Assembly (NCBI GenBank): GCA_013178165.1
Contig: JABLXG010000004.1
Coordinates: 1-64,000 of the forward strand
Reading direction: 5' to 3'
Length of the DNA: 64,000 nt
Source of the DNA: Anaerolineae bacterium
GTDB taxonomy: Bacteria > Chloroflexota > Anaerolineae > Aggregatilineales > Ch27
Part shown: positions 42,237 to 45,500 of the stretch, piece after piece
Layout: each line of letters opens with the position of its first letter
Position numbering within the stretch: the stretch's first letter is position 1
The notes under the pieces: generated by a model
Database searches by the model: none
Told to the model about the DNA's origin: nothing
The model's input: only the letters and a program-made list of their open reading frames with translations
Made by a program: the position numbers and the translations under genes

Positions 42237-43340
42237 ATGAGCGATCAACCATCTCCAACGCAGCGCTTGCAGGGCGGCCCGGCTACCCGGCCAGGGCAGC
42301 CGCCGCTGCACCCTGAACCGGAGCCAGCCACGCCGGAAGGACGCGGCGGCAGCGCGCTCCTGCTGGCGGTTGTTGCTGTTATCGGGGTATGCCTGTCGTG
42401 CAGCATCATCGGGCTGGCCGGGTTGGCCGGCTACAACGATGGCGTGCAGGCTCTGGAACGTTACGCCCGTTCCACCCGGCAGGCTGACATCGCCACCCAG
42501 TACAGCCTGGCCCTCACTGATGTTGCCGCTGGCAACAACGAACTGGCCGCCATGCGTCTGCAGCACGTGGTGCTTACCCTGGGCGCTCCGGGGGGCAGTC
42601 CTGCTGCCCTGCTGACCGAGGTGCTGGCGGTCACTTCCACACCCACCGCCTCGCCAACGCTGACGCCTTCGCCCACCCTGGAAAGCACGCCGACGCCCTC
42701 GCCATCGCCGACGGGTGGCGTCCAGCTCTCTGCTGATGCCCTGTTTGCAGAAGCGCAAGCGGCGCTGACCGTACGTGACTACCCGACGGTCATCAACCGG
42801 CTGGACATCCTGCGCGGGCTGGATCCGCAATACCGGCAGGCGGAAGTCAACACCATGCTTCATCAGGCGTTGACCTCCCTCAGCCGCCAGTACCTGACCG
42901 GCCCGGACACTAACCGGCTGGCGGAAGGCATCCTGCTGGCGGAGCAGGCGCGGGCCATCGCCCCGATCGGCGATCTGGGCTATGAAGCCTATGTCGCCGG
43001 GCGCTATCTGGACGGTCTCAATGCCGAGGGCATGGAATGCCTGCTGGCTGTGCGCGAGTGGGAAAGTGTGTACGCGGAAGCGCCGCAGTACCGCGATGTG
43101 CTCCAGCGGCTGGCCAACAGCTACGCTGCCTGCGGCGACGCCTACACCTACCAGACCGAATTCTGCCCGGCGGAACAGTATTACCGGCGGTCGCTCAGTC
43201 TGGTCAACAATAGCAGCGTGGCGGCTCGCCTGGCTGACGCCCGCGAGAAGTGCGCTAACGCCACGCCTACCCCCACTCCTACCATCGAGGGGGTGCCGCC
43301 GGAAGGTGTGCCAACCGAGGGCGTGCCGCCCTCCGGCTGA
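42237..43340 (+). CDS. Single-span membrane protein with Pro/Thr linker and TPR-like external part
   Basis: The 367-residue protein has a Pro-rich cytoplasmic N-terminus, one membrane segment (about 40-65, LLLAVVAVIGVCLSCSIIGLAG), a helical region and a Thr/Pro linker (TASPTLTPSPTLESTPTPSP). A C-terminal helical domain follows with TPR-like AEAQAALTVRDYPTVINRLDILR and conserved Cys residues. The final tail again is Pro/Thr-rich. It resembles other Chloroflexota surface proteins of unknown function. A bidirectional terminator follows 12 bases after the stop. Confidence 0.7.
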   Translation: MSDQPSPTQRLQGGPATRPGQPPLHPEPEPATPEGRGGSALLLAVVAVIGVCLSCSIIGLAGLAGYNDGVQALERYARSTRQADIATQYSLALTDVAAGNNELAAMRLQHVVLTLGAPGGSPAALLTEVLAVTSTPTASPTLTPSPTLESTPTPSPSPTGGVQLSADALFAEAQAALTVRDYPTVINRLDILRGLDPQYRQAEVNTMLHQALTSLSRQYLTGPDTNRLAEGILLAEQARAIAPIGDLGYEAYVAGRYLDGLNAEGMECLLAVREWESVYAEAPQYRDVLQRLANSYAACGDAYTYQTEFCPAEQYYRRSLSLVNNSSVAARLADAREKCANATPTPTPTIEGVPPEGVPTEGVPPSG

Positions 43341-43877: not shown

Positions 43878-43952
43878 CGGGGCGTAGCGCAGTTTGGTTA
43901 GCGCGCACGGTTTGGGACCGTGAGGTCCCCGGTTCAAATCCGGGCGCCCCGA
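43878..43952 (+). tRNA. tRNA-Pro (TGG)
   Basis: A complete cloverleaf: acceptor CGGGGCG/CGCCCCG, anticodon loop TTTGGGA with anticodon TGG, and T-loop TTCAAAT. No CCA is encoded. Confidence 0.95.
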
Positions 43953-43995
43953 CTCCAGATGACCTTAACATTCTGGAAAAGGTATCTTCTAACCG

Positions 43996-44066
43996 GCGGG
44001 CATGGTGTAAGGGTAACACAACAGCCTTCCAAGCTGTTTTTACGGGTTCGAATCCCGTTGCCCGCT
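43996..44066 (+). tRNA. tRNA-Gly (TCC)
   Basis: Acceptor GCGGGCA/TGCCCGC, anticodon loop CTTCCAA giving anticodon TCC, and T-loop TTCGAAT. No CCA is encoded. Confidence 0.95.
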
Positions 44067-44087
44067 CTTTGTTTTAGCTCTCCAGAC

Positions 44088-44160
44088 GGGCCTGTAGCTC
44101 AGCGGTTAGAGCAGCCGGCTCATAACCGGTCGGTCGTAGGTTCGAATCCTACCAGGCCCA
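44088..44160 (+). tRNA. tRNA with CAT anticodon (Met or Ile2)
   Basis: Acceptor GGGCCTG/CAGGCCC, D-arm AGCTCAGCGGTTAGAGC, anticodon loop CTCATAA and T-loop TTCGAAT. The short D-loop resembles E. coli tRNA-Ile2 (CAT, lysidine-modified) as much as elongator tRNA-Met, so the charge is uncertain. It lacks initiator features. No CCA is encoded. Confidence 0.9.
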
Positions 44161-44301
44161 TCCTTTCACGCCTGCAAGCATAGGGGGAGCGGGTGTGGTG
44201 GGAAGTAAACACTGTGCCGCCAGGACATGCCCGGTCTTTTTGCTCCAGTTCCCCCACCGGGCAGCGTACCCACCCATCAAGCGACATGAGACTTGCCAGC
44301 G

Positions 44302-44673
44302 ATGAGTCCTGCCGTCTTGATCATCGAAGATGAACCGGAAGTGCTGACGCTGCTCACGCGGATGCTTCAGCGTGAGGATTGCCAGATCATCCCCGCTTTG
44401 GGCGGAGAAAACGCCCTGCAGGCCCTTCAGCAATACACCCCGGATATCATCCTTCTCGATCTGGCCATGCCGGGAATCAACGGCCTTGACCTGCTGGAAG
44501 CTATCCAGGGGATGCCCCACCTGAGCAACACCAAAGTCATCGTTATCACTGCCCGCCCGATGATGGTGGAGGAAGCCCGGCAGTACAATGTCGTCGCCCG
44601 CATCTTCCTCAAGCCCGTGCGGGCTATCCAGCTTCTGCACACCGTCCACGAACTACTGGATACCACAGCCTGA
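44302..44673 (+). CDS. CheY-like single-domain response regulator
   Basis: The 123-residue protein is one receiver domain: acidic pair IIEDEP, phospho-acceptor Asp in DIILLDLAMPGING, and switch Thr in VIVITARP. The late Lys in FLKPVRAIQLLH completes the active site. No output domain. ATG 44302 is used rather than the TTG three codons upstream. The partner kinase could be the orphan kinase at 18344 or another elsewhere. Confidence 0.9.
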   Translation: MSPAVLIIEDEPEVLTLLTRMLQREDCQIIPALGGENALQALQQYTPDIILLDLAMPGINGLDLLEAIQGMPHLSNTKVIVITARPMMVEEARQYNVVARIFLKPVRAIQLLHTVHELLDTTA

Positions 44674-44770: not shown

Positions 44771-44820
44771 AAAAAAAGAGGACGGCCGCTTGCTGTGAGG
44801 GGGGGCACAGCAAACGGCCG
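44771..44820 (-). terminator. Intrinsic terminator of the small RNA
   Basis: CGGCCGCTTGCTGTG (44783-44797) and CACAGCAAACGGCCG (44806-44820) form a 15-bp stem with one G-U wobble (minus strand). Minus-strand reading ends with TCCTCTTTTTTT (T7 at 44771-44777). Confidence 0.85.
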
Positions 44821-44937
44821 TAGGCTTGAGGCATCCTTATCGGATTGGCCAGTGAAATCGACTTGCTGCGTTTGGCGCAGCCTGGGGGGTCATTTCACTG
44901 TCCAAAGATTACTTCCCTTGCCTGAGTCAGTCCTTAA
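44771..44937 (-). ncRNA. Candidate structured small RNA (about 167 nt; 6S-like shape)
   Basis: The gene-free interval 44674-44985 carries, on the minus strand, a promoter, three nested pairings and a strong terminator. From outside to inside they are AGGCA/TGCCT (44829-44833 with 44919-44923), TTGG-x-CAGTGAAAT/ATTTCACTG-x-CCAA (44846-44858 with 44892-44905), and GCTGCG/CGCAGC (44865-44870 with 44876-44881). The shape, one long rod with internal loops, recalls 6S RNA, but I cannot confirm homology. A read-through leader or attenuator of the NYN gene is less likely because it lies after that gene's stop. Confidence 0.55.
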
Positions 44938-44943
44938 TTGTGC

Positions 44944-44972
44944 ATTAAAGCCTTATGAGAAATCCGGCACAA
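44944..44972 (-). promoter_or_regulatory. Promoter of the small RNA
   Basis: On the minus strand TTGTGC (44967-44972) and TTTAAT (44944-44949) are separated by 17 bp, just after the NYN gene stop. The same -35 hexamer and spacing occur before the SRAP gene. Confidence 0.65.
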
Positions 44973-44985
44973 TCGATGCAGCGGC

Positions 44986-45474
44986 TTATTCCGCATCCGG
45001 TGGGGTGAAGAGCCGCAGCCAGTCCTCAAGCTCATCCGGGTCGTCTACATAGATATCCCTGGTGTCTTCATCGATTGGGGCGGCGGCGGGAGGGTGCAGA
45101 GTAATCTGGAGTTTCTCGGCAAACTCCTGGCTTGTCATCGTCTGCAAACCGCGGGCCATGGCTGCCATACGAATGGTGCGGTCGGAGGAAACGACCAAAT
45201 ACTGGCCGCGGTTGCTGACCTGTTCGATCCGGCTGATGATCAGGCGATCGGCGGTGGTGTGTAACGGCGCAAAGATCACCTTGACCTGCCCGGATGACAG
45301 TTCACGCGAAGGGCCGCCCGGCAAACCGCGATCGAAAATCACGGTTGCATGGCGCCGCGTACGCCCGCAATAGGCCCTCAGCCTTTCGACTAACCGCGCC
45401 TCATCATCAGGATCGGCCAGGTCGATGCCGGGCAGGGCATGGATCAGATTGTGGCCATCGATCAGGAGTTCCAT
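44986..45474 (-). CDS. NYN-domain protein, YacP-like (putative ribonuclease)
   Basis: The 162-residue protein has the YacP/NYN N-terminus MELLIDGHNLIHALPG, FDRGLPGG, TTADRLIISRIE and VVSSDRTIRMAA. These hold the acidic residues of a PIN/NYN-type metal nuclease. YacP (Rae1) of Bacillus is a ribosome-associated RNase, which is a reasonable guess for this short form. A C-terminal acidic tail (DEDTRDIYVDDPDELEDW) is extra. The start is ATG 45474, with AGGAAGGCGAGG upstream. Confidence 0.85.
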   Translation of the reverse strand: MELLIDGHNLIHALPGIDLADPDDEARLVERLRAYCGRTRRHATVIFDRGLPGGPSRELSSGQVKVIFAPLHTTADRLIISRIEQVSNRGQYLVVSSDRTIRMAAMARGLQTMTSQEFAEKLQITLHPPAAAPIDEDTRDIYVDDPDELEDWLRLFTPPDAE

Positions 45475-45500
45475 CCTCGCCTTCCTCATGCAGCCGCCGG

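Follow-up and report, generated by a model that had tools for sequence, protein, structure and literature searches.

A previously uncatalogued small RNA gene with a C-run terminator loop and a putative response-regulator promoter in Anaerolineae

We analysed a 64,000-nucleotide stretch of DNA from an Anaerolineae bacterium (hereafter the window). In it, the genes for a single-domain response regulator (44293-44673, plus strand) and for a NYN_YacP domain protein (45489-44986, minus strand) converge on a gap, which confirms the gene arrangement of the original prediction. The minus strand of this gap carries a real and previously uncatalogued independent small RNA gene, with the following features:

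44293..44673, plus strand: single-domain response regulator (PF00072), convergent, without a DNA-binding domain; a neighbour in family f1
44771..44777, minus strand: T-tract of seven T's, the termination point (sequence)
44772..44901, minus strand: small RNA of ~130 nt, its extent inferred from the -10 position and the terminator
44782..44821, minus strand: terminator hairpin of 16 bp, loop CCCCCCCT
44798..44805, minus strand: terminator loop CCCCCCCU, predicted base-pairing seed (C-run kept while the stem varies)
44833..44845, minus strand: small middle hairpin, ATCC GATAA GGAT (fold)
44850..44900, minus strand: 5' rod-like hairpin, CAGTGAAAT...ATTTCACTG (fold; equivalents in genomes G004 and G003)
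44906..44911, minus strand: -10 element TAATCT, 10 nt after the last unit of the box (pattern match; spacing kept in most relatives)
44922..44961, minus strand: predicted response-regulator box of four 7-bp units with an 11-bp period (array shared with relatives)
44986..45489, minus strand: NYN_YacP domain protein (yacP, PF05991), the upstream gene

The start of the RNA probably lies at an A or C at about 44901-44898, which gives a shorter transcript than the 167 nt originally claimed. The terminator had been described as a 15-bp stem with seven T's and is present as the 16-bp hairpin followed by TTTTTTT. Compared with this hairpin, the other terminator-like sites in the 64 kb (19 in all) have shorter stems, and none has a C-run loop. 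We considered whether a C-run loop is simply the generic terminator style of this genome and rejected this, on the grounds of that one loop in 19 and of the single match in the own genome of R1, a covariance model of the terminator alone built from six sequences. We also rejected a small open reading frame, ATGACCCCCCAG... (18 codons), which is open in two near-identical members of the genus but has no ribosome-binding site and no counterpart seen by eye in G004. In G001, a CCCCCCC loop also caps a terminator of another kind, downstream of a coding region (L249 1501-1551, G001:C14:69233); it first surfaced as a weak 6C match and counts against the explanation that we favor below.

R1 matched 63 of 151 relatives, usually once each, with some weak matches being false and removed by eye, and across the phylum only six further genomes matched (6 of 399). 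One false match (L093, G134:C372) is apparently a CRISPR array, built of spacers and GTTTCAGTATCCTCAAGAGCGGATCGAATAATGCAAG repeats. When the complete RNA served as BLASTN query, matches were confined to the genus and part of the family. A search by the yacP neighbor led to Chloroflexota contigs, two of which (L033 and L039) carry a quite different RNA at this place with the same C-loop terminator. One of the six matching genomes from the wider phylum, G467 from another family of the class, is a clear member, with the array, yacP upstream and the C-loop. Common to the ~51 curated relatives are the C-run terminator loop, a yacP or TPR-like gene upstream, and the 11-bp array with its -10 element. 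The small RNA gene is duplicated in tandem in two genomes (G002 at L057 and G015 at L089), each copy with its own array; the upstream copy in G002 is ~80 nt and comprises little beyond the C-loop terminator. Many f4 members have a tRNA-Pro gene close downstream of the small RNA. In the window, three tRNA genes (Pro, Gly, and Met in relatives) are clustered at 43878-44160, adjoining a gene for a TPR-like protein and the response regulator gene, a neighborhood kept in family f1. We conclude that the small RNA is a single-copy gene of an order of Anaerolineae and that many related Chloroflexota have about one per genome.

The four units of the window's array are, in order, TTCTCAT, CTTTAAT, AATTAAG, and GACTCAG, separated by aagg, gcac, and gact. 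At least three strict units (nnYTMAN) at exactly an 11-bp period were found in 45 of 51 curated members (three or four units each). With the other periods between 8 and 15, none of the 51 had three units, and shuffled sequences never reached a three-unit array. In most members, a gap of 10 nt from the fourth unit, or of 21 nt from the third, leads to the -10 hexamer; the window's own hexamer is weak. The natural reading of this layout is that of an OmpR/PhoB-type response-regulator promoter, since the repeat driving the CiaR-dependent csRNAs of streptococci likewise has an 11-bp period and ends ten bases from the -10 element (PMC3091779), the CreB tag is TTCAC-N6-TTCAC (PMC3660660), and both are OmpR-family sites. 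The small RNA therefore appears, from its promoter pattern, to be under the positive control of a two-component regulator. The promoter originally proposed, TTGTGC-17-TTTAAT, exists as sequence (TTGTGC at 44972-44967 and TTTAAT at 44949-44944, minus strand), but its role as a promoter is probably wrong: the pair was not called in a promoter scan, its TTTAAT is unit 2 of the conserved array, and the conserved -10 position in relatives lies ~33-38 nt downstream of it. The array first resembled a Pho box, and membership in a Pho regulon was rejected when the strict three-unit array was found at none of 30 phosphate-binding-protein (PF12849) loci. Several of these loci instead carry CTTTAAA-type repeats. 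At L117, L128, and L130, such repeats stand upstream of phosphate-binding-protein genes with an 11-bp period, and they probably form the genuine Pho box in these bacteria.

The 171-nt minus-strand sequence folds with a z-score of -5.2, and none of 200 shuffled sequences was as stable. From ~44901, the RNA contains three hairpins and two C-runs, the second of which, CCCCCC (44889-44884), lies largely unpaired inside the 5' hairpin. Within the window's own family, this hairpin persists while its pairs differ (CAGTGAAAT/ATTTCACTG in the window, CAGTGAACGAG/CTCGTTCAC in G004), and G003 has an equivalent; at the position of the middle hairpin, relatives carry a longer GGAGATGC hairpin, seen in L044, L065, and nearly all members of type B. 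For the window's own subfamily, covariation draws on few, distant sequences. The compensatory changes by which the original prediction was to be judged are present in the best-sampled related family, type B. In an alignment of the entire RNA from 16 type-B members (family f4), 12 of the 45 consensus pairs had changed on both sides and 97.9% of cells were paired; pairing fell to 38-49% when the alignment was slid, and the observed double changes were reached in none of 500 shuffles. The type-B terminator is a 14-pair helix with seven doubly compensated pairs, so that its stem varies while the C-run is constant. The nested stems predicted between promoter and terminator are present, but the outermost, AGGCA/TGCCT, uses promoter bases upstream of the likely start and is therefore probably not part of the RNA. 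In family f9 (L157, L158, L159, and L163), terminator hairpins GGGTGCCCCCCTCACCC with CCCCCC loops stand ~10-20 nt behind -10-like sequences; these may be 45-nt RNAs consisting of the C-loop hairpin alone, and the 11-bp array is indistinct there.

At gathering thresholds, Rfam identified only tRNAs and 5S RNA in the window and nothing at the small RNA. With E values up to 10, the 311-bp region gave only implausible animal and snoRNA matches, and no Rfam match was seen at the RNA in relatives from several families. The 6S model (RF00013) did not match the locus at E values up to 10; the sole match in the genome is a genuine 6S RNA on a separate contig (G000:C34:8738-8913, 71.3 bits). The 6C model (RF01066) did not match the locus either, and in seven genomes it gave only sub-threshold matches elsewhere (E 0.27 and 0.62). 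Identity with 6C RNA was rejected on this basis. Rfam and literature searches found no described Chloroflexota small RNA of this kind, and the family is absent from Rfam 15.

What, then, is the transcript? The original prediction had likened it to 6S RNA, with which it shares being an intergenic structured RNA; 6S identity was rejected on the missing model match and the separate 6S gene. A diverged 6S RNA acting on RNA polymerase, a reading to which the rod-like 5' hairpin lends itself, is extremely improbable, since with the true start the rod is short and the large central bubble is absent. It is also quite improbable, if less so, that the hairpin is the 3'-UTR or plain terminator of the yacP mRNA and the small RNA its processed tail. 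In the window and most yacP-bearing members, yacP does precede the hairpin and shares its strand (among the members examined, this holds for nearly all of f1, f4, f6, and f20), but the conserved array and -10 element stand between gene and hairpin, and long structured regions upstream of the hairpin are conserved. Moreover, the upstream gene in family f2 is instead related to the gene for the TPR-like protein in the window (42237-43340). Since upstream genes are unrelated from family to family, the small RNA is not the tail of one mRNA; together with G004, where yacP is more than 1 kb away with an intervening gene, this argues against a 3'-UTR fragment. That this is an independent small RNA gene carrying its own promoter and terminator, as originally predicted, is strongly supported by conservation, the promoter array, synteny, and covariation, and what we found is an intergenic gene with its own conserved promoter, terminator, and structure.

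Such an RNA could act by binding a protein, which its C-rich loop or the conserved GGAGAUGCGCGUCGCC hairpin would titrate with no pairing to mRNA. In favor of this reading, long stretches with little or no pairing are nearly invariant in type B (CAGTGGCTCATGTAATGGGATA); we nevertheless consider it unlikely, as the window copy has no such long conserved stretches and what all members keep is a simple C-run, an element that pairs with G-runs in RepG and 6C/B11 (PMC8295292, PMC10470900). Most likely, on our analysis, the C-loop acts as an antisense regulator of G-rich ribosome-binding sites, as in those RNAs. C-rich loops of both act on G-runs (PMC8295292, PMC8628891, PMC10470900). In RepG of Helicobacter pylori, the C/U-rich terminator loop is the active part and binds G-repeats, and an orphan response regulator gene adjoins the RNA (PMC8295292); RepG belongs to another phylum, no sequence relation is claimed, and a four-unit response-regulator box is not described for it there (PMC8295292). 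The 6C/B11 RNAs of Actinobacteria (RF01066) have exposed runs of six or more C's, a trait that the window RNA shares in its loop CCCCCCCU and the C6 run of the 5' hairpin, and in Mycobacterium abscessus a gene whose leader contains a G6 tract is repressed by two C-loops with redundant roles (PMC10470900); their structure, promoter, and neighbors are unlike those found here. The csRNAs of the streptococcal CiaRH regulon, a regulon that includes htrA, carry anti-Shine-Dalgarno stretches (PMC3091779). Their period and 10-nt spacing agree with ours, but the CiaR repeat is NTTAAG-N5-TTTAAG with two units, whereas the family described here has four mixed units (TCAT/TCAC/TTAAG) under the consensus nnYTMAN; the csRNA pairing region lies between stem-loops rather than in the terminator loop, and the RNAs are not homologous by Rfam. 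The family also suggests separate origins, in several phyla, of C-loop small RNAs controlled by two-component systems.

We think it probable, with some reservation, that the RNA is a trans-acting small RNA, activated by an OmpR/PhoB-type regulator, whose C-loop, together with the second C-run, acts on G-rich ribosome-binding sites in envelope stress. Judging by the sequence pattern only, an OmpR/PhoB-type response regulator would bind the four tandem units and recruit RNA polymerase to the -10 box 10 nt downstream. The ~130-nt RNA would then adopt three hairpins: one at the 5' end, a small one in the middle, and the terminator, with seven C's in its loop. This loop and, in the window's genus, the second C-run in the 5' hairpin would most likely pair with G-rich ribosome-binding sites of the AGGGGG type, and, under envelope stress, this pairing would repress the translation of proteins that are exported or reside in the membrane. 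Candidate targets were predicted by patterns only. AGGGGG occurs in ~5% of start regions (2/43). In the own genome, we counted 49 cases of AGGGGGG near an ATG vs. 32 in the reversed control, and the enrichment of 1.5- to 1.8-fold over the reversed control is modest and makes a weak target test. In both genus members, CCAGGGGGAAAA, which fits CCCCCU, is conserved ahead of the ATG of the DrrA-like mRNA. With its regulator site, regulon, and pairing site all predicted, the family is directly testable.

Across 17 genomes, the strict four-unit pattern matched the small RNA promoters and a few other sites, with no match in the reversed control, and a three-unit pattern followed by a -10 element gave 25 matches in 15 genomes, small RNA promoters included, compared to two in the reversed control. 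The three-unit box with a -10 element precedes ccmE-ccmF in all five f1 genomes; these promoters (L178, L173, L174, L188, and L186) contain TTCTCACCTGATTCTCA and the -10 hexamer TATCTT. Boxes also precede a DrrA-like ABC operon in G000 and G001, a gene for an HtrA-like protease (trypsin and PDZ domains) and one for a PDZ protein in G002, and a DnaJ gene in G040. Just upstream of HtrA-type loci, four of 27 scored above 5, vs. none in other windows or on the reverse strand, a modest enrichment. The identity of the box-carrying genes suggests a candidate envelope-stress regulon. More tentatively, and at somewhat less than even chances, one regulator may control an HtrA-type protease, a chaperone, cytochrome c maturation, and an ABC exporter along with a C-loop small RNA that silences membrane-protein mRNAs with G-rich Shine-Dalgarno sequences. 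Such a two-component circuit for envelope stress would be conserved in Anaerolineae, with a fixed array and C-loop and a fast-evolving RNA body. The DrrA-like ABC transporter operon (L152 1501-2588, G000:C10:34728 onward, and L153) has both a four-unit box and the CCAGGGGGAAAA ribosome-binding site, which is complementary to the small RNA loop, a combination that would allow a feed-forward loop.
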